From NCBI RefSeq assembly GCF_009688965.1, contig NZ_AP021875.1:3782001-3846000 (forward strand): 64,000 nucleotides of DNA, in the 5' to 3' direction. The notes beneath the pieces were generated by a model that was given only the letters and a program-made list of their open reading frames with translations, made no database searches and was not told where the DNA came from. Position numbers and translations under genes: made by a program. This DNA is from Desulfosarcina widdelii (GTDB taxonomy: Bacteria; Desulfobacterota; Desulfobacteria; Desulfobacterales; Desulfosarcinaceae). Of this stretch, positions 29,800 through 45,754 are shown piece by piece (within the stretch, counting starts at the first letter, position 1; each line of letters opens with the position of its first letter).

Positions 29800-29881
29800 T
29801 AACTTCATTGAATAAAATCAAATTTTAGCTTTAGCTCCATATAAACAATATAATGAAAATCGCCTGAAAAAATCTATTTTT

Positions 29882-29897
29882 GTCACATTCAGTCACA
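29882..29897 (+). other. Candidate integrase arm-type sites, left end
   Basis: GTCACA occurs twice as a direct repeat with starts 10 bp apart, about 110 bp inside attL. A matching pair lies at 45617-45633 inside attR. Confidence 0.45.
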
Positions 29898-29957
29898 AAA
29901 GAAAGTCATGACGAATAACTATAGACCAAAAGCGGAACCGATGGAGAACAACGATAT

Positions 29958-30380: not shown

Positions 30381-30413
30381 GAAAACCTCCGGTTAGGGCA
30401 GAAAAGTCTGATA

Positions 30414-30857
30414 TCAACCTTCTATAAAATCAAATGCCTGGGCGAAACCTGAACTTACTGTCGAATAAGTCCCTTGAAATTCCGTCCCAGGAGTGAGGCC
30501 TGTCACGCACACTAGACTATTGTCATCACTCGCTGAAACAACAGTGCCGAAAAAATCGCCAACGACATGTTCAACTTTGATTTGTTTCCTCTCAAGATTT
30601 ATTTGAACCTCAAGATTCAACGCATCTGCCAAAGACATTAATTTTTTTATGGTAAAATTTGATTCTCCGTTCAAAAGTTTTGTGACAGCAGCTGGTGAAA
30701 CACCAAGCTTTTTCGCCAGCATTGACCTTGTCATACCCTCATTTTTCAACTGCTCACGGAGGGTCTCAGTTATAGATAGCAACAAAGACTCAATCTTGTA
30801 ATCAAGGGTCTTTTGGATGGACTTACGTTTAGATTTGAACCAGCTTTCGGTATCCAT
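30414..30857 (-). CDS. HigA-like helix-turn-helix antitoxin
   Basis: A 147-residue protein with a Xre-type helix-turn-helix (RSMLAKKLGVSPAAVTKLL) and a C-terminal extension of about 70 residues. The ATG at 30857 fits GGGGAG; a TTG at 30869 is the alternative. It follows the HigB-like toxin by 14 bp, the toxin-first order usual for higBA. It should neutralise the toxin and repress the promoter through the palindrome at 31256-31273. Confidence 0.75.
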   Translation of the reverse strand: MDTESWFKSKRKSIQKTLDYKIESLLLSITETLREQLKNEGMTRSMLAKKLGVSPAAVTKLLNGESNFTIKKLMSLADALNLEVQINLERKQIKVEHVVGDFFGTVVSASDDNSLVCVTGLTPGTEFQGTYSTVSSGFAQAFDFIEG

Positions 30858-30871
30858 GCGCTCCCCCAAGT

Positions 30872-31252
30872 CTATATTTTTATGATTCGCAAATTTTTTG
30901 AATCATTTAAAATTTTTAGTGTTTTCTGTTTCTCTCGTCTCAATTGGGTCGGCTTTGGCTTTGGGAACCCGCGTGTTAGGATTAAAGAATTTTTCAGAAA
31001 ATTAGTTCCAAAAAAACATAGAATACGGCTACCGCCATTTGTTTTTAGCTCATAGACTTTATCGCCAATATGTCGGAACTTTTTAGTATTTTTTGGAGGG
31101 CCATATTCAATAATCCTATCAAACAAAGCAAAAAAGTGCGCTTGCTCCTGCTCTTCAATGGAATCTATAAAATCTCGAACCTGGACACTTCCATTTTGAA
31201 CGACAGCAAAAAGTCTATATTGCCTTCCTGCAAGTAGCCTTACTATATCCAT
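30872..31252 (-). CDS. HigB/Gp49-like toxin
   Basis: A 126-residue RelE-superfamily protein of the phage Gp49/HigB type: VQVRDFIDSIEEQEQAHFFAL, FRHIGDKVYELKTNGGSRIL and a terminal FPKPKPTQLRREKQ. These enzymes cleave mRNA on the ribosome. An 18-bp perfect palindrome ends 4 bp before the start codon, consistent with autoregulation. On a mobile element the pair would stabilise maintenance or exclude other phages (inference). Confidence 0.75.
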   Translation of the reverse strand: MDIVRLLAGRQYRLFAVVQNGSVQVRDFIDSIEEQEQAHFFALFDRIIEYGPPKNTKKFRHIGDKVYELKTNGGSRILCFFGTNFLKNSLILTRGFPKPKPTQLRREKQKTLKILNDSKNLRIIKI

Positions 31253-31255
31253 ACA

Positions 31256-31273
31256 TTTAACCTATAGGTTAAA
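31256..31273. promoter_or_regulatory. Operator palindrome of the TA-like module
   Basis: A perfect 18-bp palindrome, TTTAACCTA and its complement, lies just upstream of the toxin start. A TTGACA on the minus strand (31275-31280) abuts it, so a bound repressor would block transcription. Confidence 0.6.
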
Positions 31274-31280
31274 ATGTCAA

Positions 31281-31610
31281 GGGATGCAAAGACTCTGATC
31301 ACACCCCGATGGCTTCCTTATACAATATGTGGTGTATTTCGTGTCACCTGTATTCTAAAGGGTCTCTATTTTTTTTATAGAGAGTCGGAAAAATGACAAT
31401 ATATCGCACCTTCAAGGTGCTTATGGACCGCCACTGGTGGCAATCTGGAAACCTTCTTTAGATGCGATATCTCTTAGCGGAAATCGATCTAAACAGTTGA
31501 TTTGGAGATTTAAAATAGGCGTGAACGCTGTTTTTGTAGCTTGATAAGCGAACTGTGTCAATGGGCATTGGTCCACAAAAAATTCGAAGAAGTACTTTTT
31601 TGTGGTTTTA
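31281..31610. other. Early intergenic region rich in inverted repeats
   Basis: No gene is seen between the divergent TA and early operons. Inverted repeats are TCTCTAT/ATAGAGA (31363-31383, T7 loop), GCACCTT-C-AAGGTGC (31406-31420), GCCAC-TG-GTGGC (31430-31441), and CCACAAAAAA/TTTTTTGTGG (31573-31605). ATATCGC (31401-31407) pairs with GCGATAT (31464-31470) around the two middle hairpins, giving a possible three-way junction. It could be a replication origin, a regulatory RNA or an immunity region. Confidence 0.5.
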
Positions 31611-31614
31611 GCTA

Positions 31615-31662
31615 TTGACGTATGATAAAAATAATATTATACCATGCACCATGATTCATGGT
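31615..31662 (+). promoter_or_regulatory. Early promoter with overlapping operator
   Basis: TTGACG (31615-31620) and TATACC (31638-31643) are separated by 17 bp. A perfect palindrome ACCATGA-T-TCATGGT (31648-31662) lies over the expected start site. Its core CATGATTCAT recurs at 32169-32179, upstream of the second regulator. Confidence 0.65.
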
Positions 31663-31683
31663 TCGTATTAAAGGGGGGAAATT

Positions 31684-32145
31684 ATGGAAATTAACCACAG
31701 GGACGTTTTAAGAATTTACAGGCAATTAAATGGTCGCACGCTGATCAGTTGGATTGAAAAGGGACTGTTTAAACCGCTTTACGAACCCGAAAACAGAGGC
31801 GGGAAGCGTTCGTATTCTTATCAAAATCTCGTGGAAATTGGAATCATCAAAGAACTATCTCTTCTGGGGTTCCCAATAAAGCGGATCAAAGTTGTAATGG
31901 AACACGATTCAATTCGAAATCGTATTAATTCAGAGGATTACGACTTTTTTTTGTTAATTTCTATTAATAACGTAAACATTCTCAACGCTGAGAGCATGAA
32001 AAAAGTTGGCACCACATCTTTCATGCCATTGGTCCAAGACGTTCCTGCAGAAAAAGTCGACTCAGGGGTGGTGCTGAGCGGGCATAGAGGCGTTTGGGTA
32101 GATGTTAGATCGATCCGCCAATTAGTTGATGAGGATCTCGGCTAA
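31684..32145 (+). CDS. MerR-like DNA-binding regulator
   Basis: A 153-residue regulator. The N-terminus resembles a MerR winged helix (LISWIEKGLFKPLYEPENRGGKRSYSYQNLVEIGIIKELSLLG has the usual order, seen in parts as RSYSYQNLVEIGI and LGFPIKRIKVV). The C-terminus has no known ligand domain. A GGGGGGAAATT ribosome site precedes the ATG. As the first gene of the early operon with an operator over its own promoter, it is the likely master repressor or switch of the element. Confidence 0.7.
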   Translation: MEINHRDVLRIYRQLNGRTLISWIEKGLFKPLYEPENRGGKRSYSYQNLVEIGIIKELSLLGFPIKRIKVVMEHDSIRNRINSEDYDFFLLISINNVNILNAESMKKVGTTSFMPLVQDVPAEKVDSGVVLSGHRGVWVDVRSIRQLVDEDLG

Positions 32146-32162
32146 AAAATTTTAAGCACAAC

Positions 32163-32180
32163 GATGAATCATGATTCATC
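32163..32180. promoter_or_regulatory. Second operator palindrome
   Basis: A perfect 18-bp palindrome, GATGAATCA and its complement, lies between the two regulator genes and shares CATGATTCAT with the palindrome at 31648-31662. Confidence 0.6.
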
Positions 32181-32195
32181 ATACAAGGAGGTACG

Positions 32196-32420
32196 ATGTC
32201 ACCAAACCTCAAATTGAAAAGTGAAATCCTTTACAGATTTGGCTCCCAGTGCAAATTCGCGAAAGAAGTCGGTGAAAGTGAATTGCTTATCAGCCAGGTC
32301 ATCCATGGGCGGCGAAAGTTGAAACGTGACCAAGCTGAGGCTTGGGAAAAAGCTCTCGGCTGCGGGATCGACGTTTTCGAACCTGCGATCAAGGAGGCCC
32401 CGCAGTGCAGCAACTGCTGA
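32196..32420 (+). CDS. Cro-like helix-turn-helix protein
   Basis: A 74-residue protein with a small helix-turn-helix (FAKEVGESELLISQVIHGRR) and little else; it ends PQCSNC. CAAGGAGGTACG precedes the start. Probably the Cro-like counterpart of the upstream regulator. Its end overlaps the next gene by 16 bp. Confidence 0.7.
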   Translation: MSPNLKLKSEILYRFGSQCKFAKEVGESELLISQVIHGRRKLKRDQAEAWEKALGCGIDVFEPAIKEAPQCSNC

Positions 32421-32620
32421 CAGCAAAGGACGTGGCCGGTTTGCTCCAGTGCAGTGTGCCTCTGGTCTATAAAATGACCACGGACGGTCGGCTTGCATGC
32501 ATCCGGATTCCTTGCCCTGGTACTGGCACCTCCAAGCCAAGGTCTCTAAAGCGATTCCGGCCATCTGATGTTCAATCCCTCATCGATGATCATCTCACGA
32601 TCACTGAACAGGTAAAATAG
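32405..32620 (+). CDS. Excisionase-like helix-turn-helix protein
   Basis: A 71-residue protein. The GTG start at 32405 sits 6 bp after AAGGAGG; an earlier in-frame start would lie deep inside the previous gene. It has the HTH_17 pattern of excisionases (LLTAKDVAGLLQCSVPLVYKM, then the FRPSDVQSLI wing). It may direct excision (Xis) or act as an early regulator. Confidence 0.7.
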   Translation: MQQLLTAKDVAGLLQCSVPLVYKMTTDGRLACIRIPCPGTGTSKPRSLKRFRPSDVQSLIDDHLTITEQVK

Positions 32621-32625
32621 CATCC

Positions 32626-33387
32626 ATGCTGCCATTCATTCAGATGATGCGATCGGAGGAGACTCGGGAGTTATTGCAGCGGCCCAATGAGTTCATGCTG
32701 CTTGCCTTGATTGCATACCGGGCAAAAAGAACGAACGGATTTTCTGCCCACAACCTTGAAATTGGAGAGGCATTAATCGGCGACCACAAATCATGCGGGC
32801 TGACAAGGCAGAAATATCGGTCTGCACTGAACAACCTCAGAGCATGGCAGTTTATAACCACCAAGACAACCAACAAAGGAACTATTGCAAAGATAATAAA
32901 TTCAAACGTTTTTAACGTTAATTGTGAAATCGTCAACCATCAAGACAACCAGAAAATATCCATCGAGCAACCATTAAATAACCATCAAACAACCACTAAC
33001 AATAATGATAAGAAAGAAAAGAAGGGAAAAAATGAAAGAGATACTCTGTCGAGTATCTCTCGTTGCCCTTATCAAAAGATCACTCAGATTTTTTCTGACC
33101 TCCTGCCTGAATTACCAACTCCAAATCTCGACAACAATCTCAAGAAACAAATCCGCTCAAGATGGAAAGAGCATCCCGATCTTGAATGGTGGCGGTGGTA
33201 TTTTGCCGGCGTTTCTGGATGTGACTTTCTTATGGGCCGCAAAAGCGACTGGCACGCAACCCTTCACTGGCTTACCGGGCCCCAAAACATGAGCAAAGTC
33301 CTAAATGGACAATATCTGAATCGGAAACCCATGGACGCAAACCAGGCCGCTGGCCAGGAATTCGTACGCGAGGTGCGAAATGGATAA
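32626..33387 (+). CDS. Phage replication initiator (O-like)
   Basis: A 253-residue protein. The N-terminal winged-helix part (FMLLALIAYRAKRT, GLTRQKYRSALNNLRAWQFI) is typical of phage replisome organisers. An Asn/Lys-rich linker follows. The C-terminal part with WWRWYFAGVSGCDFLMG and HATLHWLTGPQNMSKVLNGQ resembles lambda O-like C-termini. It probably binds the origin and recruits the helicase. It overlaps the next gene by 8 bp. Confidence 0.7.
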   Translation: MLPFIQMMRSEETRELLQRPNEFMLLALIAYRAKRTNGFSAHNLEIGEALIGDHKSCGLTRQKYRSALNNLRAWQFITTKTTNKGTIAKIINSNVFNVNCEIVNHQDNQKISIEQPLNNHQTTTNNNDKKEKKGKNERDTLSSISRCPYQKITQIFSDLLPELPTPNLDNNLKKQIRSRWKEHPDLEWWRWYFAGVSGCDFLMGRKSDWHATLHWLTGPQNMSKVLNGQYLNRKPMDANQAAGQEFVREVRNG

Positions 33388-33901
33388 AACAGACGCCGAA
33401 CGCTTTCGTAATTTAATGCTGGGTATGGCTGATAATTTTCGAGACTCTCTCAGCAAAGAAGGCATGCGCCTGCGCTTTGAAATGCTACGCCCCTATTCCA
33501 TCGAACAGGTTGAACGTGCCGGCATAGAAATCATGTGTTCCAGGAAATACAACAAAATGCCTCCTGTAGCAGAATTCATTGAAGCCATTGAGGGGGCAGC
33601 TCTTTCCTTGGAAACAAAAGCTAATCATCAATGGAATACCCTCATGGAGCAAGTGAGGTCCGTTGGCTGGTACGGGACGCCATCCATTGAGGATCCGATC
33701 ACACGAAAATTGATGACTGGCCGCTTTTCGATGGCCAGCCTTTGTGAGGCCACACCGCGGGAACTGAGCTTTTTGCGACGTGACTTTCTGGCCGCCTATT
33801 TAGCGGAGGAATCGATGGGTGAAGTAAAATTGATAACCGATGGCACAAACGGCAAAAAAGTCAAAAAGTTAGCTGCCGGAATTTTCAAGAATGTCAGTTA
33901 A
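33380..33901 (+). CDS. Putative helicase loader or replication accessory protein
   Basis: A 173-residue helical protein overlapping the initiator gene. The pattern LRFEMLRPYSIEQVERAGIEI and YNKMPPVAEFIEAIEG resembles phage G39P/P-like helicase-loader families. Its position directly after an O-like initiator agrees with that role. The assignment is by resemblance and context only. Confidence 0.6.
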   Translation: MDKTDAERFRNLMLGMADNFRDSLSKEGMRLRFEMLRPYSIEQVERAGIEIMCSRKYNKMPPVAEFIEAIEGAALSLETKANHQWNTLMEQVRSVGWYGTPSIEDPITRKLMTGRFSMASLCEATPRELSFLRRDFLAAYLAEESMGEVKLITDGTNGKKVKKLAAGIFKNVS

Positions 33902-33963
33902 CACTTTCAACGCCGCACATGCTGCGTGCGGTTGGTGCAAAATGATGATTTTGAGCCGGCCAG

Positions 33964-34086
33964 GTGCCCACAACCGAAACCAATTTGGCCGAGCGACAAA
34001 TCCAAGAGCAGGGTTCGTTTGGCCGATACCGGGAGCTGCCCGGTGCTCATGCCAACCGGGTTGCTCACAACATCATCGGAGGATAA
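33964..34086 (+). CDS. 40-codon reading frame abutting the large protein
   Basis: From GTG 33964 to TAA 34086 the frame encodes 40 residues (VPTTETNLAERQIQEQG, then FGRYRELPGAHANRVAHN). It ends immediately before the ATG of the 1,834-residue gene, and the large gene's GGAGG lies within it. It may be a genuine short protein coupled to the next gene, or the surviving 3' end of a longer gene removed by deletion. 33902-33963 holds only a CGCAC/GTGCG hairpin. Confidence 0.4.
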   Translation: MPTTETNLAERQIQEQGSFGRYRELPGAHANRVAHNIIGG

Positions 34087-37000
34087 ATGGCCGAATACGA
34101 CACCTCAAGACTCGGAAGCGACCCTCAAAACGGCGCGCTCTACATTCCGCCCGAAGAACGCAGACCCGATGCCACCGCCGACCGCATCGCCGGCCGGTTT
34201 TTCCAGACCGTGAAAAGCGCACCCGCACGAGCTGCCGCAGCGCATCGCAACCGCATCGAGGCCATGGACAGCGGCGACATGGCCAGTCGTGTGCGTACCG
34301 TAGGCGACCGCATGACCTGGGCGCAACGCACCCGGGCGGCCATGCACGGCGAAACCGCTCCGGATTTTATCGAAGAGGCCGGGCTCGTCAAGGTGCAGGC
34401 CCGCAAAACGGCGCTGATCGATGAGGGCTATCACCCGGACGCGGCCGAGCAGATGGCCATGGTTGAGCACGTCGAGGAGCGCAAGCAGGAGATGGCCGAC
34501 GACATGCGGGCCGTCGAGCGCGAATTTGCCATGCCGCCGGAATACCGCAAAAGCTCCGGTTTCCTCGAGGACGTGGCCGGCGGGCTGGGTACAAGTCTCG
34601 TATCTCTGCCGGCTTATGCAGTTCATCCTCTGGTGGGTGCCGCTGTTACCTTCGATCAGATCGGGGGCGCCAAGGTTCAGGAGCTGGAAAGCCTCGGAAT
34701 CAATGACCCTGAATCGGTGCTCAAATCCGCCCGTTTATCCGCGGCCGTTCAGACCCCCTTGGAGGCGGTCAGCAACCTCTTTATCATTTCCCGCATCCTG
34801 AAGCCGACCAACAAGTGGACATCGGCGCTCGTCGGTGTGGCTCAATCCATGATCGGCGAAGGCGCCACTGAGTTCGTGCAGCAGTACCCGGACGAGTTTG
34901 CGACCATGATGGCGCTCAATCCCGATCTTAACAGCCGGGAGCTTTTCAACGAGTTCATGGACCGGATTCCCGAGACCACGGCCTCGGCCGCCTATGCCGG
35001 GCTGGTGGGCGCCTTTTCCGGCGGGATCACAACCGGGGCCGGGATCAGCTCCATGACGGTCATCGACCGGCTCACGACGCCACGGCAAAAAACGCTCAAT
35101 GCCGTGAAATTGGAGCGTTTAACCCGGCTCACGAACAAGGCCGAAACCGGAGAGCTCAACCAGCAGGAATTCAACGAACTGAAAAGCATGATCGGGGCTC
35201 GGGGCGTTGATCTATCCGTAGAGGAGGCCATTGCCGACATCCGCCAGCGCGTCGATATCAAGGCGCCCATCCAGTCGGAGAACCGGGACCGGATCGTCGC
35301 GTCGTTGGGCAAGGCTTACGATCCACATCAGGCCGAGGCCGTTCAAAACGTTTTCGACGGCACGGCCCGGGCATGGGCTCGACGCAATGACAAAACGCCG
35401 GCGCAATTTTATGAGGAGGTGCTCAGCGGCTTCGAGCAGGGGCAGGCCTCCGCGTTTATTCCATCCAAAGCATCGGTTTTTTTCCAGGGCAAGGGACCGC
35501 AGACCCTCCGCGGACGGATCAAAAAAGAAGGCGGCATCAATTTTCTGAATTTCAAGGGCGAGCTCAAAGAGCTGCCCGTTGCCGTCAAATTCCTCTCTAA
35601 AAAATCAGGCGTGCCCATCGATTTGATCGAACGCACGTTACGCGATGAGGGCTGGCTCGACGAGGGTGAAAATCTGCTCGAGGTCCTGCGCGATCCCGAA
35701 AACCTGAAACGCGGTAAGCTGGGTACCGAGGCTCAGACGGAGGCTCAAAAGCAGGCCCAAGAGGCTCAACAGTGGGAATACGACCCGGAGGAACCGCCGC
35801 CGGGCGATTTTCAAACGATGAAAGCCCAGGACCTGCCCGAGGGTGAAAAGGTCACCATCATCGACGGCAATGGCCGGGACGGTTGGGACGTTTACGAAGT
35901 TGTGGACAAAGACCCGTTTGGCGTTACCCTGCAGGACGGTCGAACTGTCGAACTGTCGCCGCTGGATCAGGTTGACGTTCTTCTTGCCGGCGATATCCCA
36001 GTCGGCAATCCGGATCCGAACGCGCCACGGGGAGCCGTTGAGAATCTGCTCGACGCGGCCCCCAATATTATTCACGCATTCGAGGCGGCCGATCCGTCAA
36101 CGCCTATCCATGAGCTGGGACACGTCATAACTGCGATGCTAGCCAGAGAGCAAGGTGATGACTATTCGATCCTGGCCGAATTTGCCGGTGTTGATGCCGA
36201 GCGTGCCGGATCAGGCCTGCAGGCGTGGACGGAGCAAGAGATCGAAAAGACGGCCCGAGCATTCGAGGCCTACGTCATGGAGGGCCGGGCGCCCACGCTC
36301 AAGCTGCGTGAGGTGTTTGCCCGTATGAAGGCCTGGCTCATTGACATTTATAAGTCGGTCGTGTCCCTGGACGTTGAGCTCAATGACGAGGTGCGCGAAG
36401 TCTTTGACCGGGCCGTTGCCGTCGATTTCGAGCGCCAGGCGGACCCGCTGCTTGACGTCGGCGAATGGCTCAGAGTGGAAAACCTTGACGATGCCGCCGG
36501 CTTTGACCTGTCCACGGCCACAATCCAGGACATCGAACATGAGGCGGTGCGCCGGGTGGTGAAAAAGGCCTCGGCACAGCGCAAGCGGGAGGCATCGAGG
36601 ATTCGCAAAGAGCTCAAACAGGCCGCCGTCGATGATGTCGACGCGTATCATGTCCGCAAAACTATCGATAGCATCCGCGTTGCAAAAGGCTTCGATCACG
36701 ACATTATGTACAATCTTTTCGACGCCGAAACCGTGGAACAATTCAACCGGCGCCTGCCGGGCATGGTCAACCGCGACGGTGTTGACCCGGTGCTCTTTGC
36801 CGCGGCACATGGATACCGCAACCTGGAGACCCTGCTTGACGATGTAATCAACGCACCCAAACGCCAGCGGGCTATCGAAAAGCGGTACCGTGATCTTGTC
36901 ACCGAGTACGAAAAAGGCACCGAGCGCGATAATTCCGAAATCATGGCCGAGGTCCTGGCCGAGCAGGTGCGCATGCTCAACGATGCCGCCGGCAGAGAGC

Positions 37001-39591
37001 CGGCCATGGGCACAAAGGCCGTTGTGCGGCAGGCCACCGGGCAAGTCACCGACAAAGAGCTCATTGAGCTGCGCAAACGGTTCAAGCGTGACGAGCAGAT
37101 CGCCCGGCGGGCTTTTTCCGCCGGAAAAAAGGAGGCGGCCGCCAAGCTCAAAGAGGCTCAAAAGATCAGGATCGAGCGCATCCGGAACGTCCACAGGGCA
37201 AAAGAGCTGCGCGAAAAAACGCATCGACGCATCAAACGTTATTGGCGCATGCAGACGATCCCGCTCGAATACCGTGAGCAGATCATCCACTTGAGCGCCG
37301 AATACTATACCATCCCGCAGACCCTGCAGGTTTCTCCCGATCGATCCCTGGAAGAATTTCTGCAGCTCAAGTCCGAGTCCGAGCCCTATATGGTGCAGAG
37401 CATCATGAGCGCCCACGCCGCCCGACCTGTCCAGCAGCGCAACCCGAAAACCGGCTACCGCATGCCGATGAGCACCGAGGAACTGACCGACATTGCCGAC
37501 CTGATCGACATGCTGGCGTACATGGGCAAAACCGAGGGCGCCTTGATAGAAGCCGGCAAGAAAATGGATTTCAACGCCGCGGTCTCGGAAATGATCACCG
37601 CCGGCTACGAGTCCCACAAGATGGAGCGCCAGGCCCCGGACGGCCCGGTCCGTCGAGACGAAAAGACCCGGCTGGACAAGATCAAGGACATCCCCGCCGG
37701 CATCGATGCAGAGTTGAGAAAAATTGAGTTCCTGCTCCAGGAGCTCGACGGCTGGGAGGAAATGGGGCCGAACTGGCGTTACATCTTCCGGGGGATCACC
37801 AGGGGGGAGGAAAAGCGCCTGCAGATGTCCGAGATGGTCTCCAAGCGCCTGGCCGAAATCTTCGCCGGCCGTGCCCGCAATTGGGCAAAGAAGCGCTACA
37901 CCCTGAGTGACGGCCTCCAGGTGACGAAACAAGAGGCGTTTATGATCGCGCTCAACTCTGGCAATGCCGGCAACCTGTCCGCGCTGATTGGAGGCAATGG
38001 ATATGATAGCGTCCAAATTGATGAATGTATCCACCAGGTGCTCGATCAATCCGAAAGAAAGATGGTCAATGACCTATGGAACCTGGCCGATGAAATGTAC
38101 CCCCACCTTGCCGAGGTCCACCAGCAACTCACGGGCGCCCGCCTGCCGAAAGTCGAGGGCCGTTATTGGCCTTTGATATTTGATCCGAAATTGAGCGTCA
38201 AGGCCGGCATTTTCAAATCCGAGAAAGAGGCCCGGGACCTGTTCACCTCTCCCTACGGAAGCGCCCACGTCGAGGCCGGCCACCGCAAGGCCCGCAAGGG
38301 CGGGAAAATGCCGGTCTATCTGGAGATCAACGCCATATCGCATCATTTCTCAAACGTGATCAACGACATCAGTTACCAGGTGCCCATCCGGAACGCGCAG
38401 AAAATTTTTATGAGCCCGGCCTATCGCGAAATGGTCAACACGGTGCTGGGTGAACAGTATTTCGGGCAGCTGATCCCATGGCTGCAGTTTGTCGCCCGCC
38501 CGGGCATGAATATCCGCTGGAGCCAGATGGAGCGCATGGCCATTTCGCTCAAGCGGAACGCCACCGTTGTCGGTCTCGGCGCCAACCTGGTCACCAGTGC
38601 CAAACAATTCATGAGCTACACACAGACCATTGACGAGGTTGGCGAAGCTCAGGCAGCCAGCGCCCTGGCCAAATTCATCAGCAACCCGCGAAAGTGGATC
38701 CAGTTTGCCAATCAGCACAGCTCACTCATGAAAAACCGGCGGAAATCCTGGGACCGCGAACTCGCAGACATGGCCCGGCTCTTCGACAAGGATCTACTCG
38801 GCCGATCTGAGGGCATTCGGGATGCGCTTTTTTTTACAATCGGCTGTATCGATCAACTGGCCACTTACCCGACCTGGCTGGCCGGATACCGCAAAGCGAT
38901 CAGAGACGGCCGGGAGCATGCCGAGGCGGTCGAGGTTGCCGACAGGACCGTCCGGCGGACCCAGCCCATGGGCTCGCCCAAGGATCTGGCCAACATTCAA
39001 AACGGCACGGTGTTCAAGAAACTGATTACGATGTTCTACACCTTCTTCAGCAGCTTCTACAACCGATTCACCGAAACCCGCCGGAAGCATAAGCTTGGCA
39101 AAATCAACGCGATGCAGGCCTTCCGTTCCTATATGTGGATATGGGTAATCCCCTCGGCCGTTCCCGCCATGGTCGGTTCTCTCTTCTGGAAAAAAGAGAT
39201 TCCCGAGTGGTCTGAATTGGTCAAGGAATCGATTCTCTATTTGGCTGGCGGAATTCCTATTGTGCGCGACCTGGCGGACCCCGTTGTTTCCCGGCTCACA
39301 GGCAGCCGATCTTTTGGCTACACGCTCACGCCTGTTGAAGGTGCCGGAACGGCCGTTGCCAACCTGGCTGCCGATGTCGGGCGGATGGTTGACGCAGAGC
39401 GAAGGGTGGAGCTGGAGCAACTGCTCAAGCACGGCGTGACGACGGCCGGTTATGTAAGCGGCGTGGTCCCGGCCGTCCAAATCAATAGAGGTTTGGACGG
39501 CCTCTTCGACATACTCGAGGGGAAAACCGAAAACCCGGCCCGGCTGATATTCCGGGCCCCTGCGGACGTCAAGAAGGCTCCGCGATTTTAA
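34087..39591 (+). CDS. Large polyvalent ejection protein with zincin motif
   Basis: A 1,834-residue protein, the largest in the window. The N-terminal third has an amphipathic and hydrophobic region (VAGGLGTSLVSLPAYAV). A zincin-like metallopeptidase module lies at about 655-790: H675-E-L-G-H679 in STPIHELGHVITAML, a probable third ligand E720 in EIEKTARAFEAYVMEG, and RMKAWLIDIYKS after it. Residues about 830-1160 are charged and helical. The C-terminal 450 residues (MFYTFFSSFYNRFTETRR, then a hydrophobic WVIPSAVPAMVGSLFW) resemble podophage internal-core and 'large polyvalent' proteins. Such proteins travel with phage DNA and are injected into the host. There is no lysozyme or polymerase motif that I recognise. 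Confidence 0.75.
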   Translation: MAEYDTSRLGSDPQNGALYIPPEERRPDATADRIAGRFFQTVKSAPARAAAAHRNRIEAMDSGDMASRVRTVGDRMTWAQRTRAAMHGETAPDFIEEAGLVKVQARKTALIDEGYHPDAAEQMAMVEHVEERKQEMADDMRAVEREFAMPPEYRKSSGFLEDVAGGLGTSLVSLPAYAVHPLVGAAVTFDQIGGAKVQELESLGINDPESVLKSARLSAAVQTPLEAVSNLFIISRILKPTNKWTSALVGVAQSMIGEGATEFVQQYPDEFATMMALNPDLNSRELFNEFMDRIPETTASAAYAGLVGAFSGGITTGAGISSMTVIDRLTTPRQKTLNAVKLERLTRLTNKAETGELNQQEFNELKSMIGARGVDLSVEEAIADIRQRVDIKAPIQSENRDRIVASLGKAYDPHQAEAVQNVFDGTARAWARRNDKTPAQFYEEVLSGFEQGQASAFIPSKASVFFQGKGPQTLRGRIKKEGGINFLNFKGELKELPVAVKFLSKKSGVPIDLIERTLRDEGWLDEGENLLEVLRDPENLKRGKLGTEAQTEAQKQAQEAQQWEYDPEEPPPGDFQTMKAQDLPEGEKVTIIDGNGRDGWDVYEVVDKDPFGVTLQDGRTVELSPLDQVDVLLAGDIPVGNPDPNAPRGAVENLLDAAPNIIHAFEAADPSTPIHELGHVITAMLAREQGDDYSILAEFAGVDAERAGSGLQAWTEQEIEKTARAFEAYVMEGRAPTLKLREVFARMKAWLIDIYKSVVSLDVELNDEVREVFDRAVAVDFERQADPLLDVGEWLRVENLDDAAGFDLSTATIQDIEHEAVRRVVKKASAQRKREASRIRKELKQAAVDDVDAYHVRKTIDSIRVAKGFDHDIMYNLFDAETVEQFNRRLPGMVNRDGVDPVLFAAAHGYRNLETLLDDVINAPKRQRAIEKRYRDLVTEYEKGTERDNSEIMAEVLAEQVRMLNDAAGREPAMGTKAVVRQATGQVTDKELIELRKRFKRDEQIARRAFSAGKKEAAAKLKEAQKIRIERIRNVHRAKELREKTHRRIKRYWRMQTIPLEYREQIIHLSAEYYTIPQTLQVSPDRSLEEFLQLKSESEPYMVQSIMSAHAARPVQQRNPKTGYRMPMSTEELTDIADLIDMLAYMGKTEGALIEAGKKMDFNAAVSEMITAGYESHKMERQAPDGPVRRDEKTRLDKIKDIPAGIDAELRKIEFLLQELDGWEEMGPNWRYIFRGITRGEEKRLQMSEMVSKRLAEIFAGRARNWAKKRYTLSDGLQVTKQEAFMIALNSGNAGNLSALIGGNGYDSVQIDECIHQVLDQSERKMVNDLWNLADEMYPHLAEVHQQLTGARLPKVEGRYWPLIFDPKLSVKAGIFKSEKEARDLFTSPYGSAHVEAGHRKARKGGKMPVYLEINAISHHFSNVINDISYQVPIRNAQKIFMSPAYREMVNTVLGEQYFGQLIPWLQFVARPGMNIRWSQMERMAISLKRNATVVGLGANLVTSAKQFMSYTQTIDEVGEAQAASALAKFISNPRKWIQFANQHSSLMKNRRKSWDRELADMARLFDKDLLGRSEGIRDALFFTIGCIDQLATYPTWLAGYRKAIRDGREHAEAVEVADRTVRRTQPMGSPKDLANIQNGTVFKKLITMFYTFFSSFYNRFTETRRKHKLGKINAMQAFRSYMWIWVIPSAVPAMVGSLFWKKEIPEWSELVKESILYLAGGIPIVRDLADPVVSRLTGSRSFGYTLTPVEGAGTAVANLAADVGRMVDAERRVELEQLLKHGVTTAGYVSGVVPAVQINRGLDGLFDILEGKTENPARLIFRAPADVKKAPRF

Positions 39592-39607
39592 GAAATGGAG
39601 GTGTCAT

Positions 39608-40594
39608 ATGTGCGGTGGATCTGGTGGTGGTGATGGCGGCGCGGGCCAAGGTTCTCACGGTGGTATGGCCGGAGAAGCCGACGTTTCCGGACTGGCTGCA
39701 GGCGAGGCGGCGGCAGCAAGTGGTTTGGGCCAGGGCGGTTTCGGTGGGCTCGGTATCGGCAACCCGGGTTCATACGGTGGACAGGACACCGTCGGCGCAC
39801 CCGGGGCAACTGGTGGTGCCGGCACCACGTCTGGTGGAGAGGCTGACGTTGCCGGGTTGGCTGCAGCCGAAGCGGCCAGCAAAGCAGCGGCAAAAGCGGC
39901 CGCAGGAGAAGCCCTGACCGACGCAGATATCAGTGCAATGGTTACGGTCACGCAGGACGCCAACCTTGCAAAAAGCCTGACCGCTGAAACGCTGGCGCAA
40001 AGCTATATGTCCACGTCCAAAGCCTCGGACGTCGATAAATCCGAACTGGCCGACAACTACCTGGCCGCACTCGTTGCCCGAGGAGATATCAGCGAGTCCG
40101 ATATCTCATCCAGCGACACCATGGCAAAGATAGTATCGTTTGTTACCGATTTTGCGCTTAGCAAGTCGGTCGTTCCGGTCGCTGGTCAACTGGCCAGCAA
40201 GATCGGCTTGTCGCCGATTGTCGGCAACCTCGCCAGCTTGGTCAGCACGGAGAGTTTTGTGGTCAGTGAATCCCGGCAGTCATTTGCGCAGCACCAAGCA
40301 GCCAAGGCACTCGGGCTATCCACCGAATCGACCGTTGCGACGCAGGCCGGAGGCAGTTCTGGTGGAGAGCAGCAAACGGCATCCAAGGCCAATGCTGGCC
40401 CGGCTACTACGCAACCGGCAACGAGCACGACCATGGCTATCAAGGAAACCGCGGCGGTGAAACCGACGCTTGCCGAGCGTCAGGATCTGGGGCTGATTGG
40501 CACCGGCAGGCGTGGGACGATCCTCACGGGACCGGAGGGCCTGTCCGACGAGCATGACCCGAAACTCAAGCGCAACACCCTGCTCGGAGGGTAG
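39608..40594 (+). CDS. Gly/Ala-rich internal virion-like protein
   Basis: A 328-residue protein starting MCGGSGGGDGG and rich in Gly, Ala and Ser. The C-terminus GLIGTGRRGTILTGPEGL followed by KRNTLLGG is a pattern I associate with small podophage internal virion (gp14-like) proteins. The central region is helical with moderately hydrophobic stretches. GGAGGTGTCAT precedes the ATG. Its position directly after the giant protein supports a shared ejection role. Confidence 0.6.
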   Translation: MCGGSGGGDGGAGQGSHGGMAGEADVSGLAAGEAAAASGLGQGGFGGLGIGNPGSYGGQDTVGAPGATGGAGTTSGGEADVAGLAAAEAASKAAAKAAAGEALTDADISAMVTVTQDANLAKSLTAETLAQSYMSTSKASDVDKSELADNYLAALVARGDISESDISSSDTMAKIVSFVTDFALSKSVVPVAGQLASKIGLSPIVGNLASLVSTESFVVSESRQSFAQHQAAKALGLSTESTVATQAGGSSGGEQQTASKANAGPATTQPATSTTMAIKETAAVKPTLAERQDLGLIGTGRRGTILTGPEGLSDEHDPKLKRNTLLGG

Positions 40595-40630
40595 TCCGGG
40601 CGATCAAAATCAAAATGAAAGGAAAGTACC

Positions 40631-41122
40631 ATGACAACAGACGGAACAAACAATGTCCCCGGAGACGGCAAGAGCGATGATTACGACTTTACTGACTCGA
40701 ATCCCAAACCTGATGGAGATGGCGTTCTCCGCGGTGAGGACGGCCGGCCATGCTTGAAATTTGATAACGGGCCCCAGGCGGAGCCCGAGGACCCCGTGGG
40801 CGAGACCATCGAGCGGTTCGGCGAGAGCGCAATAGATGAAGTGCGGGATTTTATAAAAGAATTTCGAGACGACGAAAACGGCGAATGTGATTTGCGGACC
40901 CTCGAAAGGAACAACCTCTATCATCAACCGGAAGTGGTTGCCGGCTTCGTCGAGCGTCTGGACCAATTGAGGGAACTGAAAAAGTATTACGATGCCGAAA
41001 GCCCACATACAGCTGGGCGAGAGCGGTTTAAATACAAATCCATGATTAGGGGCATTCTCCTCGCTGCTTTGGAAGACGGAAAGTCTCGTTTCGTAAAGAA
41101 GCATGGCCCGTTGAGCATGTAA
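40631..41122 (+). CDS. Acidic hypothetical protein of the ejection block
   Basis: A 163-residue acidic protein, disordered at first and helical later (YYDAESPHTAGRERFKY). No family recognised. The GAAAGGAAAG site is good. It lies between two probable internal virion proteins in the same direction and could be a chaperone or a minor virion component. Confidence 0.6.
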   Translation: MTTDGTNNVPGDGKSDDYDFTDSNPKPDGDGVLRGEDGRPCLKFDNGPQAEPEDPVGETIERFGESAIDEVRDFIKEFRDDENGECDLRTLERNNLYHQPEVVAGFVERLDQLRELKKYYDAESPHTAGRERFKYKSMIRGILLAALEDGKSRFVKKHGPLSM

Positions 41123-41130
41123 AAAAACAT

Positions 41131-41159
41131 GCGCCCGGTAGCGGCAATGCGCCGGGCGC
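41131..41159 (+). other. GC-only hairpin before a ribosome site
   Basis: GCGCCCGG pairs with CCGGGCGC across a 13-base loop. No T run follows; CAGGAGGTG and the start of the 575-residue protein come next. It is more likely a processing or translation-control hairpin than a terminator. Confidence 0.6.
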
Positions 41160-41175
41160 CACCAGGAGGTGAAAA

Positions 41176-42903
41176 ATGAAAATCCCGAGATATGAGAGAC
41201 TGGTCGATGCGCCCAGCAAGACCATGCAGCCGGCCAGCAACGTCCGCATGCCGCTGAACGATCCGGCCAACTCCGGCCTGAAAGAGGCTGCGGCCGTTGC
41301 CGGTGGGATCAGCGAGCAGGCGCAGCAGCGGTATGAGCAACGCCAGCACGAGCGCCGGGCCATGGGCGTGGCCGATGCCGTTTCTAAAATCAGGCAGTTC
41401 GAAACGGAGTCGATCATCCCGTTGTACTCGCTTAAAGGCAAGGATGCCATTGGTGACATAAATGATCCGGAGAAAACGCCCGGGATTTATCGGCGCGGTA
41501 AAAAACTCTATGAGGACGAAATCGAGCGAATCCGCGGAAGTATTTTGGATCCAAAAATTCAAGCGGCTTTCAAGATCAAAGCGTCAACAGTTTTGTCCGA
41601 CGCCCTGGAAAGCCTGGCACGCCATGAAGCGACCGAACACCAGATCCTAAAACAGAACACCTACGAGACGACGCTTGCCCAGCTGGTTCAAAACGTTTCG
41701 ATCAATTGGAGCAATGCGGATGTCCTGACCAACTCCATCGAAGAGATCAAGACACTGGCGGATGAAACCTTTCCCGGGCTCGACATGAGCGTTTCAAAGC
41801 AGGCAGCAGAGTCAGCTCTCCGGGCAACAGCTATAAAGCGCATGGCTGACGTTTCTCCACAAACCGCTCTCAACCATCTCAAAGCCTGGAAAGATAAGCT
41901 GTTGCCCGATACCTATGAGCAGCTCAAGAACCCAATTCTGTCCGAGGCTGTCTTTGATGCCGCAATCGCCACGCACGGCACCGATTATGACGCGATGCTC
42001 GATTCGGTTTCGAAATCTTCGCACTCCCAGGACGTCAAAACCACCGTTGCAAGCTGGATACGCTCCAGGCGGGCAGAACATGAGCGCAGGAACACAGAGG
42101 CCCTGAAGCAACGCCGGGTGGAGGGCTATAATAAATTTTGGGGGTACATGCGCGAAGGCAAACAACTGCAGGCCATGAAAGTGGCCGGCGGTCTGAACAG
42201 CAACGATTTTACTCAGCAGGAAATCAATAACTTGGAACAGTACGCCCGACAGGTGGTCACCCAAAACAACGACCTGCTTGAGAAGGATCTGCACGTTAAA
42301 ATCCGGACGGGCGCGATCACCGACATGCACCAAATTTATGCCATGCCGGAAATGCAACAGCTTACTGTCGAATCGCTCCGCAGGCTTGAGGGAACCATCC
42401 AAGAGGAGGCCAAGCTACCCAGCGGATATAAGGCCGGAATCGATGCTTTAGAGCAACGCTTTGACAGGGTTTTCAAGGATACCGACTATTACAACATGAA
42501 ACCGCTGTTCCTGAGTGAGTTGCTCACTGACATTGAGCGCGAGGAGGCCAGCCGGAAAAAGAAACTTTCCACTCAGGACATCATCAGCATAGGCAATCAA
42601 CTGCTGGACCTTCACACAGAATCAATGCCCTGGTATCGCCCGGATAAAAAATATCGGCCGTTCGAAAATATCGCAGATGAGTACGGTAGCAACCAGGCGC
42701 AGGATAAAGAAGCGGCTAAGCTCATGACTCAAAAGGTGGATCAAATCGATCCGCATGTACGCGACGGCATCATCCAGACGCTGCAGCTATCCGGCCGGAA
42801 ACCTTATACAGAGCACATCTGGAACCTGTTTAAGCATGCACATCCAGCCGATGCGCTGAAGATCGAGGAGACGTTTCCTGGCGCCGGAGATACGATACAT
42901 TGA
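41176..42903 (+). CDS. Helical internal-core-like protein
   Basis: A 575-residue, almost entirely helical protein rich in Gln and Glu (EQAQQRYEQRQHERRAMG, then IIPLYSLKGKDAIGD). It lacks membrane segments and cysteine motifs. Size, composition and gene position resemble the gp15-type internal core proteins of T7-like phages, which form the ejection tube together with gp14 and gp16. The assignment rests on pattern and context. The start follows CAGGAGGTGAAAA. Confidence 0.55.
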   Translation: MKIPRYERLVDAPSKTMQPASNVRMPLNDPANSGLKEAAAVAGGISEQAQQRYEQRQHERRAMGVADAVSKIRQFETESIIPLYSLKGKDAIGDINDPEKTPGIYRRGKKLYEDEIERIRGSILDPKIQAAFKIKASTVLSDALESLARHEATEHQILKQNTYETTLAQLVQNVSINWSNADVLTNSIEEIKTLADETFPGLDMSVSKQAAESALRATAIKRMADVSPQTALNHLKAWKDKLLPDTYEQLKNPILSEAVFDAAIATHGTDYDAMLDSVSKSSHSQDVKTTVASWIRSRRAEHERRNTEALKQRRVEGYNKFWGYMREGKQLQAMKVAGGLNSNDFTQQEINNLEQYARQVVTQNNDLLEKDLHVKIRTGAITDMHQIYAMPEMQQLTVESLRRLEGTIQEEAKLPSGYKAGIDALEQRFDRVFKDTDYYNMKPLFLSELLTDIEREEASRKKKLSTQDIISIGNQLLDLHTESMPWYRPDKKYRPFENIADEYGSNQAQDKEAAKLMTQKVDQIDPHVRDGIIQTLQLSGRKPYTEHIWNLFKHAHPADALKIEETFPGAGDTIH

Positions 42904-42959
42904 GGCGATGCTTTGCGTGTTTCTATGAGGCTAAATAGATTGATATATAGGGGGGGTTG

Positions 42960-43187
42960 ATGAGGCCTTTATGCTCAAAATGCGGCTCTAAGCTAACCGG
43001 ACTCGTTCGTCAGCACCGGCACGATGATCGTCATATCCGCGAAGTCTGGCAGTGCACCGAGTGTTCGCACGATTTCATCAGGATCGAAGAGGGGGCACTA
43101 CAAGAACCGGCGCGGTTTTGTCCGGATGGCATCGGGGAGCCCGGGCCGTACAATCCGTTGAAGCACTTGCGGCGGGATCGATCGTGA
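42960..43187 (+). CDS. Zinc-ribbon protein (Ogr/Delta-like spacing)
   Basis: A 75-residue protein with two cysteine pairs, CSKCGSKL and CTECSHDFI, about 22 residues apart. The spacing and the aromatic residue after the last pair resemble the Ogr/Delta late-gene activators of P2 and its satellite P4, although the last pair is C-x2-C, not C-x4-C. A generic zinc ribbon is the alternative. Its stop overlaps the next start (GTGA). Confidence 0.6.
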   Translation: MRPLCSKCGSKLTGLVRQHRHDDRHIREVWQCTECSHDFIRIEEGALQEPARFCPDGIGEPGPYNPLKHLRRDRS

Positions 43188-43456
43188 AGAAAGACCAGGG
43201 CACCCGCGATCCGTTTTGCGCTCATTACCGAAAATGCCTAAACCGCTGCGCTCGTGACGACACAGCTATGGACTGCGTTGGATGCCCGATGTACGCCCCC
43301 GGTCGTATCGAGCTTACCACAGAAGACGTCAGAGCCTGTCTGAAGCTCATATCTACTGTTTTTGGATCCTCGGCTAGCATTGGCATTGATGAAACGGCGA
43401 GGCGAGGCGTGTCACCGTTTGCACATGCTGACATCCCGTATGTTGAGGAGGCCTAA
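43184..43456 (+). CDS. Cysteine-rich small protein
   Basis: A 90-residue protein whose GTG start overlaps the previous stop. Six cysteines lie in the first 36 residues (FCAHYRKCLNRC, then MDCVGCPMYAPG), enough for a metal site. The rest is helical and ends IPYVEEA. Family unknown. Coupling to the zinc-ribbon gene suggests they work together. Confidence 0.55.
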   Translation: MKKDQGTRDPFCAHYRKCLNRCARDDTAMDCVGCPMYAPGRIELTTEDVRACLKLISTVFGSSASIGIDETARRGVSPFAHADIPYVEEA

Positions 43457-43524
43457 AATAGTCGATTATGCCGGATTATGGCCGAATATTTGAGCTCATG
43501 AACGCTTAGCTCATGCGAAACGAT

Positions 43525-43683
43525 CTATTCAGGTGGGGTTTTTCCATGCTTGGATAGAATGTCAAAAATGGCCTCTTCGAGCAGATCATTGACACGGCAA
43601 TCTTTTTCAGCGGCCAGGATCTTTAATTCACGAATCAGGTCAACCCTAATTGTAGTGTTGTAGCCTTTGCGTTTTATCTCGTT
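43525..43683 (-). CDS. Ribbon-helix-helix DNA-binding protein
   Basis: A 52-residue protein (MNEIKRKGYNTTIRVDLIRE, then LAAEKDCRVNDLLEEAIFDIL) with the short strand and two helices of CopG/Arc-type repressors. A longer reading from 43746 would add a hydrophobic extension and is less likely. It is the only leftward gene of the right half and faces a promoter region with an inverted repeat, which it may bind. Confidence 0.65.
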   Translation of the reverse strand, partial: NEIKRKGYNTTIRVDLIRELKILAAEKDCRVNDLLEEAIFDILSKHGKTPPE

Positions 43684-43720
43684 CATGGTCACCATGTAGC
43701 AAATAAAAAGAAATATAGCA

Positions 43721-43766
43721 ATGTAGTTAAAAAAACCTTGACGCAAGACAGCTATTCAACTACATA
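43721..43766 (+). promoter_or_regulatory. Promoter with flanking inverted repeat
   Basis: TTGACG (43738-43743) and TACATA (43761-43766) are 17 bp apart. ATGTAGTT (43721-43728) and AACTACAT (43758-43765) form a perfect inverted repeat around the -35. The transcript would begin about 50 bp before the structured RNA. Confidence 0.5.
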
Positions 43767-43824
43767 TCTATATATAAAGTCAATTCATTCCAAAACCGCG
43801 ACAATGACAATCAGATTTCAAAAT

Positions 43825-43897
43825 AATGCCTGGATGCCCGTATCGGTAACGAGCGGGGCCGTTGTCGCGACGGTGGAAACATCCAGGCGTTTTTTTA
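43825..43897 (+). ncRNA. Three-way-junction RNA with terminator
   Basis: P1 is a 12-bp closing stem (GCCTGGATG with CATCCAGGC, plus A-U and U-G pairs outside). P2 pairs CCCG with CGGG and carries an inner UCG-GUAA-CGA hairpin with a GNRA tetraloop. P3 pairs CCGTTG with CGACGG (one G-U pair) over a 3-base loop. Seven T residues follow P1, so the 3' end works as an intrinsic terminator. No reading frame fits it. It could be a small regulatory RNA or an attenuator for the next gene. Confidence 0.6.
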
Positions 43898-43913
43898 TGA
43901 AAGGAGCGTCACA

Positions 43914-44132
43914 ATGGAAATCAGAAAAAATTTTAAGGACCGGACGGAGTTGATGCTGCAGGAACTGCGTACCATCAAGGCCATGGTCGCAAGCTCACGC
44001 GAGACCTTGGATGCTGATGACGGCCAGTCCGTCGATGCAACATGGGGAAGGAACCAGGCCGCCGTTGCAGTGATGGGCGATGTTGAGCACCGAATTGACA
44101 TGCTCATTGAGGATGAAAAAGACTTTGAATAG
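43914..44132 (+). CDS. Small hypothetical protein
   Basis: A 72-residue helical protein (LMLQELRTIKAMVASSRETL, then VMGDVEHRIDMLIEDEKDFE) with GAAAGGAG upstream. No family is recognised. It follows the structured RNA directly, and its ribosome site lies in the sequence after the U-tract. Confidence 0.55.
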   Translation: MEIRKNFKDRTELMLQELRTIKAMVASSRETLDADDGQSVDATWGRNQAAVAVMGDVEHRIDMLIEDEKDFE

Positions 44133-44236
44133 TGGCAGAGGGTGGAGAGATTCAGTTCAATGCAGTCATTTCGAGCTCAGCGCAGCGGGGTATCCCTCTG
44201 CAAAAAATCAAATCGGCATTTTTGGACAAAACTTAA

Positions 44237-44260
44237 GCCTGGCCTCTCCGGGGGCCGGGC
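44237..44260 (+). other. GC-rich hairpin before a ribosome site
   Basis: An 8-bp stem GCCTGGCC/GGCCGGGC (one G-U pair) with an 8-base loop is followed directly by CAAAGGAGGA. There is no T run. Confidence 0.55.
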
Positions 44261-44274
44261 CAAAGGAGGATCTC

Positions 44275-44472
44275 ATGGGAAACCAAGCCACTTATCAAAA
44301 GAGCACAGGGCTCTCCCTGGATGATCTGCAAGAAATGAAACGATTGATCAACAGCGCCGCCGAGATCCTGGAAAATTCGGAGAGCAAAACGCCAACCATG
44401 CCCACGGAATCAATTGAGCGCCTCATGAGCACCATGAGGCTCAAGCCGACGCGTCACTGCAGCAAATCATAG
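44275..44472 (+). CDS. Small hypothetical protein
   Basis: A 65-residue protein starting MGNQATYQKS after AAAGGAGGA. Its helix GLSLDDLQEMKRLINSAAEI resembles the previous small protein in style. No motif is recognised. It ends before a bulged hairpin and the integrase. Confidence 0.55.
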   Translation: MGNQATYQKSTGLSLDDLQEMKRLINSAAEILENSESKTPTMPTESIERLMSTMRLKPTRHCSKS

Positions 44473-44478
44473 CCTCTC

Positions 44479-44522
44479 GTGGGGAGCAACGGACGGGACA
44501 CATCCGCGAGCTGCTCCACCAC
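44479..44522 (+). other. Bulged hairpin upstream of integrase
   Basis: GTGGGGAGCA pairs with TGCTCC-A-CCAC (ten pairs, one bulge), with a CGGA/TCCG hairpin in the loop. It lies 60 bp before the integrase start and has no T run. Confidence 0.5.
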
Positions 44523-44583
44523 AACTCGATGGTTTGTTTCTATCGGCGCCAAGTTGAGTCTAATGCATTAAAAGGAGGGTGCC

Positions 44584-45666
44584 ATGGCTAAAGTAAGAAA
44601 ACGCGGAAAGACCTGGCAGATTGACTATTTCGATCCAAATGGCAAACGTGTAAGGAAAGCCTTTAAAAAAAAGAAAGATGCCGAGGCTGAGTTGGCCAAA
44701 CGGGTGTCATTGATCGCAGAAGGACGATACCTGGATGTCAAACGAGAATGCACTACGGTCTTAAAGGTCCTGCTGGACAAATACGAAGAGAATCATAAGC
44801 ACCAACCGAGCTACAAAACCTGCAAGCAATATTTTATCGATGACATTCGCTCTCGGTTCGGCGATGACACGCTCATATCAAACATCAGGTATGTGGACCT
44901 TGAAACCTACAGAAATCACCTGATGAACACATTAACCAAGCACAAGAAAAAGCGCTCAGTGGCAACGGTCAATAAGGCAATTGGCTGCCTGCGGCATGTA
45001 TTCACGAAGGCCGTTGAATGGGAGATGGTCGAAAGCAGCCCATTCGATAAAGGTCGGCCGCTTGTCAGGAAAGAAAACAACAAACGCCTGCGGTTTTTGA
45101 CTGAGGAAGAGATTCCAAAACTGCTGAACGCATGCCCTGTCTATCTTCGGAACATCGTCGAATGCACGCTCAACACAGGAATGCGCCGCGGCGAGGTATT
45201 GAGTCTGAAATGGGATCAGGTCCGGAATGGGTTCATCTACCTCACGAAAACCAAAACCAATGAGGCCAGGCAAATCCCCATCAACAAGGACTTGGACAAC
45301 CTATTCAAGAGGATCAGAAAGAAGGATCACCTTACCACTGAATACGTATTTAATTACCAGGGGACGCCGGTGGCTGACGTCAAAAAGGCATTCGCAACCG
45401 CATTGAAAAAGGCCGGCATCGTGGATTTTCGATTCCATGATCTGCGGCATACCTTCGCCAGTCACTTTGCGATGCGGGGTGGGTCACTCAAGGATTTGCA
45501 GGAACTGCTTGGCCACCGGACGATGACCATGACGCTACGCTACGCCCATTTGACCCAGGAGCACAAAAAGAAAGCGGTCAACCTGCTCAATGGGTTGACC
45601 GCTTCAAAAATCATTTGTCACAAAACTGTCACATCTCAGAATCCCTCCAAATGTTCCAGCCTGTAA
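44584..45666 (+). CDS. int: Tyrosine-recombinase integrase
   Basis: A 360-residue phage-type integrase. The N-terminal arm-binding domain (RKRGKTWQIDYFDPNGKR) and SAM-like core domain precede the catalytic domain. Catalytic residues are R201 in TGMRRGE, H285 and R288 in HDLRH, H311 in LLGH, and nucleophile Y320 in LRYAHL. AAAGGAGGGTGCC precedes the ATG. Its last codons lie 13 bp from attR, the usual place for a tRNA-targeting integrase, and carry candidate arm sites. Leftward transcription of tRNA-Val now runs antisense into it. Confidence 0.95.
   Translation: MAKVRKRGKTWQIDYFDPNGKRVRKAFKKKKDAEAELAKRVSLIAEGRYLDVKRECTTVLKVLLDKYEENHKHQPSYKTCKQYFIDDIRSRFGDDTLISNIRYVDLETYRNHLMNTLTKHKKKRSVATVNKAIGCLRHVFTKAVEWEMVESSPFDKGRPLVRKENNKRLRFLTEEEIPKLLNACPVYLRNIVECTLNTGMRRGEVLSLKWDQVRNGFIYLTKTKTNEARQIPINKDLDNLFKRIRKKDHLTTEYVFNYQGTPVADVKKAFATALKKAGIVDFRFHDLRHTFASHFAMRGGSLKDLQELLGHRTMTMTLRYAHLTQEHKKKAVNLLNGLTASKIICHKTVTSQNPSKCSSL
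45617..45633 (+). other. Candidate integrase arm-type sites, right end
   Basis: GTCACA occurs twice as a direct repeat with starts 11 bp apart, within the last codons of the integrase, about 50 bp from attR. It matches the pair near attL. Confidence 0.45.
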
Positions 45667-45679
45667 CTTATTGATTTTG

Positions 45680-45727
45680 TGGTAGGCGCGATTGGATTTG
45701 AACCAACGACCTCTTCCGTGTCAGGGA
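45680..45727. other. attR within the tRNA-Val gene
   Basis: The 48 bp are identical to 29727-29774. Identity ends inside the 5' strand of the anticodon stem, so crossover lies between the anticodon loop and the 3' end, a frequent choice of tRNA-targeting integrases. Confidence 0.93.
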
Positions 45728-45754
45728 AGCGCTCTCCCCCTGAGCTACGCGCCT
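45680..45754 (-). tRNA. tRNA-Val(GAC)
   Basis: A complete cloverleaf is read leftward. The acceptor is AGGCGCG/CGCGCCT with discriminator A and an encoded CCA (45680-45682). The D arm includes TAGCTCAGGGGGAGAGC, the anticodon stem is CTTCC/GGAAG with loop CTGACAC (anticodon GAC, valine), and the T arm is GTTGG-TTCAAAT-CCAAT. The 3' part was supplied by the element on integration and restores the gene. Confidence 0.95.

Follow-up and report, generated by a model that had tools for sequence, protein, structure and literature searches.

To our knowledge, the C4 antisense RNAs have been studied mainly in phages P1 and P7. In the phage P1 record, C4 (RF01695) is preceded by the targets a1 and b1 and followed by a2 and b2, beyond which lie icd and ant, the genes that C4 controls according to the annotation; its segment b′ is the loop of hairpin P3, and its segment a′ (CTGTCAA) is the 7-nt linker that joins P3 to the closing stem P1. 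The mode of action of C4 in P1/P7 includes maturation by RNase P to a length of about 77 nt and translational inhibition in trans. The CI RNA of satellite P4, which acts by premature termination, pairs with two sequences that flank it, seqA on the upstream and seqC on the downstream side (PMC4825925). In the immI region of P22 (Mnt/Arc, sar RNA, and ant), a ribbon–helix–helix repressor stands beside an antisense RNA, sar, that is directed against ant (PMC12197685), and in Gifsy-1 the activating prophage RNA IsrK occurs as a terminator-ended short form and as a read-through mRNA whose leader ORF is coupled to the next gene (PMC4825925).

The present study concerns an RNA in a 64,000-nucleotide stretch of Desulfosarcina widdelii DNA (the window; coordinates are positions in it, on the plus strand unless noted). 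We read this RNA, with a probability of about 0.78, as a diverged, single-loop antisense RNA of the C4 type that belongs to the c4-2 branch and most probably silences neighboring genes by pairing through one of its loops. Like C4 of P1/P7, it is a three-way junction of similar size, the order is leader target, RNA, gene, and the P3 loop is the antisense part. In contrast to phage P1 C4, which has a UUCG loop and carries a′ in its linker, the window RNA has one antisense segment and a 5-nt linker, GGAAA (43875–43879), that does not supply a second; it has its own T-run, and in place of icd and ant it is followed by two small ORFs without a family and then an integrase, so that there is no antirepressor for it to control. 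It shares with P4 CI a complement in its own leader and a location in an integrated element (PMC4825925), without a sequence or fold match to that RNA. The resemblance to immI, a ribbon–helix–helix gene next to the RNA, is one of analogy, and in the window there is no antirepressor to play the part of ant. The likeness to IsrK is one of description.

A c4-2-like three-way junction

The 73-nt stretch 43825–43897 folds with a minimum free energy (MFE) of −37.0 kcal/mol (z −4.42), which none of 200 dinucleotide shuffles reached; when 1048 windows of 73 nt were sampled from the 64 kb, only one folded as well. The three-way junction itself spans 43825–43891. The stems, the GUAA loop and the seven T residues reported in the initial annotation are all present, and its description of the stems as perfect or interrupted by G-U pairs only is correct for P1 (43825–43836 with 43880–43891; 12 bp, one G-U) and incorrect for P2 (43837–43857), which contains a bulged A at 43842. 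The loop of P2 (43846–43849) is a GNRA tetraloop, as in all relatives parsed, and the UA/G step of this hairpin, where the MFE structure draws a single bulged A with a U-G pair, is the counterpart of the UA bulge of the family. P3 (43858–43874) has 7 bp and a 3-nt loop in the MFE structure; comparison with the relatives suggests rather a stem of 4–5 bp and a loop of 7–9 nt.

An Rfam search, proposed in the initial annotation, returned c4-2 (RF02944, in the clan of C4) as the top of 4227 families, with an end-to-end match under a relaxed threshold (32 bits, E 1.6e-4). Because this score lies under the gathering cut-off of 41 bits, we call the window RNA c4-2-like and do not assign it to RF02944. 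Matches to the Rfam families “S15 leader” and “ncS54” were due to chance (E 3–4). The window RNA shares with c4-2 its size, the order P1-P2-P3, a P2 that has a UA bulge and ends in a GNRA loop, the P3 hairpin and the phage-type setting. It differs in that P1 is continuous, without the UAUGG/CCUAA internal loop that faces a GAAA loop in the Rfam consensus, and in that its tetraloop is GUAA; a continuous P1 is likewise found in most relatives with non-GAAA loops.

More relatives were found in viral contigs by means of P2 patterns, and a script seeking P1, a bulged P2 capped by a GNRA loop, and P3 yielded about 50 deduplicated RNAs; a search of genome contigs with the pattern CCGTATCGGTAACGA gave chance matches, which were discarded. 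No close homologs of the window locus were found by DNA, by the 72-aa ORF downstream or by the repressor, and the covariation therefore rests on distant relatives, namely 25 RNAs with a continuous P1, the window RNA among them, which were aligned with MAFFT. In this alignment both partners vary in 16 of the 17 P1/P2 pairs. Covariation scores 0.71, compared with 0.20 for shuffles and no more than 0.17 for slid versions. In all, 90.8% of cells pair, a percentage biased toward structure because the RNAs were partly picked by pairing. Thus, at the family level P1 and P2 are kept by compensatory changes, the absence of which would, according to the initial annotation, have refuted its reading. The covariance model built from these sequences (R1) scores the window RNA, itself a member, at 54.9 bits and finds matches in 30 of 242 genomes of the order. 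Two wider sets of genomes contain c4-2 matches in 9 of 97 and in 6 of 395 members, respectively, and the genome from which the window comes has, elsewhere, another two matches to c4-2 and one to C4 above cut-off. Together, the Rfam match and our own model give the “compact regulatory RNA” of the initial annotation a more specific form, a divergent c4-2/C4-type antisense RNA, whose regulatory action we infer. Some elements contain two c4-2-like RNAs, in tandem at locus L070 (6386–6450 and 6466–6530, minus strand) and as a pair at locus L463 (genome G236, C56:43813 and 46641).

Complementarity between the P3 loop and its own leader

Complementarity between the P3 loop and a target in the leader is a family-level rule. 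The longest exact complement of each P3 loop in its own 120-nt leader, compared with the leaders of other loci, averages 6.9 nt versus 5.0 nt (n = 39); among 49 deduplicated loci the means are 6.8 and 4.9 nt, a difference reached in none of 20,000 permutations (p < 5e-5). The result was repeated in 18 order-level loci found later by the model (6.4 versus 5.0 nt, p < 5e-5). In the window, the b′-like segment CGUUGUCGCG of P3 (43860–43869) is complementary to CGCGACAAUG (43797–43806), an a1/b1-like target that lies, as in C4, upstream in the same predicted transcript and that overlaps an AUG. Eight Watson–Crick pairs, those of CGCGACAA, are joined in this match by a U-G and a C-G pair. None of the leaders of the 38 other loci contains as long a match, and the duplex energy is the best of the 39. 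However, an equally long match occurs in about 1% of random 120-nt windows, so that the evidence from this single locus is moderate and the strength of the case comes from the family rule.

Complementarity also extends downstream, often to a Shine–Dalgarno sequence or start codon (5.5 versus 4.7 nt in the full set), whereas the order-level loci show no such enrichment (4.4 versus 4.5 nt). The P3 loops of many phage loci can thus pair both with their leader and with the start of the gene that follows, which is the arrangement a1/b1–C4–a2/b2 of phage P1. In the window a second candidate target, CGUCACAAUGG (43907–43917; duplex −14.1 kcal/mol with a mismatch), coincides with the start codon of the 72-aa ORF; it is weak and only average compared with other loci, while several phage relatives have a strong downstream match. 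Many relatives have a purine-rich leader hairpin and a spacing of the AUG that the window leader lacks. Candidate targets on both sides of the RNA bring to mind an immunity of the P4 CI kind, in which pairing with the nascent leader would terminate transcription prematurely and translation would not be blocked. Pairing of P4 CI with seqA and seqC (PMC4825925), the same order of parts and the stronger upstream target in the window are consistent with this mechanism; the fold and the Rfam match indicate C4 and not P4 CI, and we consider it possible but rather doubtful.

A possible leader ORF of 49 aa (43804–43953) runs through the RNA. It has no Pfam match, and a Phage_ASH/Icd-like identity was accordingly rejected, as was a leader ORF as a general rule, since the first-AUG frame is open in 12 of all loci with a target against 10 expected. 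Where the AUG of a relative follows its target by 12–24 nt, the frame is open in 11 of 18 cases, versus 28% of other frames, which is suggestive of leader ORFs in a subset of relatives. It might be argued from these frames, and from the one open through the window RNA, that what functions is the translated 49-aa peptide, with the fold as a by-product. We regard this as highly improbable, since the peptides differ, the compensatory changes hit synonymous and nonsynonymous sites alike, and both the Pfam result and the count over all target loci speak against it.

Covariation of the P2 tetraloop with P1

The identity of the tetraloop's third base goes with that of the base in P1 that lies five positions ahead of P2 (Fisher p 1.6e-7): GNAA loops occur with G at this position in 25 of 29 cases and with A in 4, and GNGA loops with A in 15 of 16 and with G in 1, these counts ignoring the relatedness of the loci. 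Other P1 positions give p values of 0.02 or more. Suggested by the first loci, the hypothesis was then tested with scans for GNGA loops: of the 12 new loci, 10 had AG, one AC and one GG. In addition, P1 is interrupted after 5–6 bp in all six RNAs with GAAA or GGAA loops, versus 1 of 45 (p 3.9e-7). The rule in the family is therefore GYAA with GG/CC, GYGA with AG/CU, and GAAA with an interrupted P1; the tandem pair at L070 has AA with both loop types.

This agrees with the rule for tetraloop–receptor contacts in crystal structures, where GYGA loops go with AR/YU receptors, GYAA loops with RG/CY receptors and GAAA loops with an 11-nt receptor (PMC3494683). The window RNA follows the rule: its GUAA loop accompanies a GG at 43832–43833, partnered by CC at 43883–43884, which is the predicted GG/CC minor-groove receptor. 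The covariation suggests that the GNRA loop of P2 docks into the P1 stem of its own RNA. We found no earlier report of such a contact in c4-2 in the literature searched, which did not extend to the main c4-2 paper.

Stem P1 is followed by the T-run at 43890–43896, and runs of at least five T after P1 are present in 53% of family RNAs versus 3% of control stretches, so that P1 and its T-run resemble a terminator in half of the c4-2-like family. This feature would be expected if the locus simply served the operon of the element as an intrinsic terminator or attenuator, with transcripts ending at P1 and the seven T and the inner hairpins playing no part. A terminator, however, needs none of the compensatory changes in P2, the P3 loop that tracks its leader or the covariation between tetraloop and P1, and we therefore think this alternative unlikely. 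Attenuation, as envisaged in the initial annotation, is possible, and termination may still be part of the mechanism of an antisense RNA.

The chromosomal branch and the integrated element

The c4-2 shape is also found in a branch of chromosomal RNAs whose P3 loop (GGAUGG) and linker (CUGACAG) hardly vary, and the fold alone is therefore no proof of antisense action. Members of the branch are L002/L496 (same genome as the window, C1:1678243–1678311), L493, L495, L497–L504, L506, L511 and L515. Their P3 loop lacks leader complementarity. A cobalamin riboswitch lies 0.1–0.95 kb upstream on the same strand in 14 of 20 loci scanned and in none of 20 other c4-2-like loci, and some branch RNAs adjoin cobalamin genes (cobO-like at L002, cbiK-like at L478), making the branch a candidate for a riboswitch-controlled small RNA. 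The existence of this branch raises the question of whether the window RNA is likewise a cis element without an antisense role. This is very unlikely, given that its P3 loop is not of the constant type, that it is located in an integrated element and that the window contains no cobalamin riboswitch.

A broader model, which we put forward tentatively and at somewhat less than even odds, is that c4-2 is a docked junction, with a receptor that covaries with the loop, which directs a single P3 loop against its own leader; phage elements would use it to silence small ORFs, antirepressors or integrase, and the chromosomal branch would have been co-opted by cobalamin regulation. The results provide the c4-2 branch with a testable architecture: there is one antisense loop, its target lies in the leader of the RNA itself, and the tertiary contact predicted for it conforms to the classical tetraloop–receptor rule. 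For prophages of little-studied bacteria, this offers a route to predicting both targets and switching genes. The same shape in a nonphage, cobalamin-linked role is a warning to such predictions.

The initial annotation had also placed a promoter with an inverted repeat upstream of the RNA. The repeat is real, with 19-nt arms (43713–43731 and 43755–43773) that are 84% complementary, and forms an operator candidate (43713–43773) around the promoter-like site TTGACG-17-TACATA (43738–43766); the second hexamer of this site is poor, and a consensus promoter scan did not list it. The neighboring gene, divergently transcribed, encodes a ribbon–helix–helix (Arc-like) protein of 56 aa (43525–43695, minus strand; PHROG 3180, E 6.6e-8; Pfam Antitox_RHH, E 4.9e-7), the putative repressor under whose control the window RNA probably stands. 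A divergent repressor was rejected as a part of the family module, since in the translations inspected it occurs at the window only.

If the window RNA is a C4-type antisense RNA, transcription would proceed rightward from the promoter in the inverted repeat, beside the divergent gene, and the transcript, presumably processed, would fold into the junction and probably stop at the T-run. The GUAA loop would dock on the GG/CC pairs of P1 and leave the P3 loop exposed, which, in trans or on the nascent chain, would pair with its target in that transcript's own 5′ leader. Pairing would block translation from the overlapping AUG, as in P1, favor a stop at the RNA's own terminator, as in P4 CI (PMC4825925), or both. 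The small ORFs and possibly the integrase would thereby be repressed in the lysogen.

The first downstream gene, an ORF of 72 aa without a family (43914–44132), encodes a predicted helical hairpin, for which a fold search is uninformative, and has no homology to the neighboring small ORFs. It is followed by an ORF of 65 aa, also without a family (44275–44472), the tyrosine integrase of the element (44584–45666; Pfam PF00589, E 8.8e-36) and a tRNA-Val gene that forms the right attachment site (45680–45754, minus strand). Repeats of the tRNA-Val 3′ end (at least 35 bp) delimit an element of ~16 kb (29727–45680) with integrase, HTH, excisionase-like and replication-initiation genes and, among the proteins scanned, no recognized head or tail genes. 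“Satellite-like,” as the initial annotation called it, is a plausible description, and a deleted prophage fits too. In relatives, antirepressors (AntA, P22_AR_N, Bro-N/ANT, Rha and KilA-N) are common as next genes; other relatives have small ORFs and then an integrase (L009 and L031), or small helical ORFs near tRNA genes. As in the window, a tRNA gene lies on the other strand 0.3–1 kb downstream of the RNA in six order-level loci (L464, L466, L467, L470, L479 and L482), which suggests a position at the ends of integrated elements.

The left copy of the tRNA-Val repeat is seen as a weak Rfam tRNA match at 29730–29800. The largest gene of the element (34087–39591) encodes an 1834-aa protein assigned to PHROG 9880, a family of unknown function (E 3.6e-156), and at 30414–31252, on the minus strand, an HTH protein and an adjacent small ORF are, judging from PHROG matches, arranged like a HigBA-like toxin–antitoxin pair.
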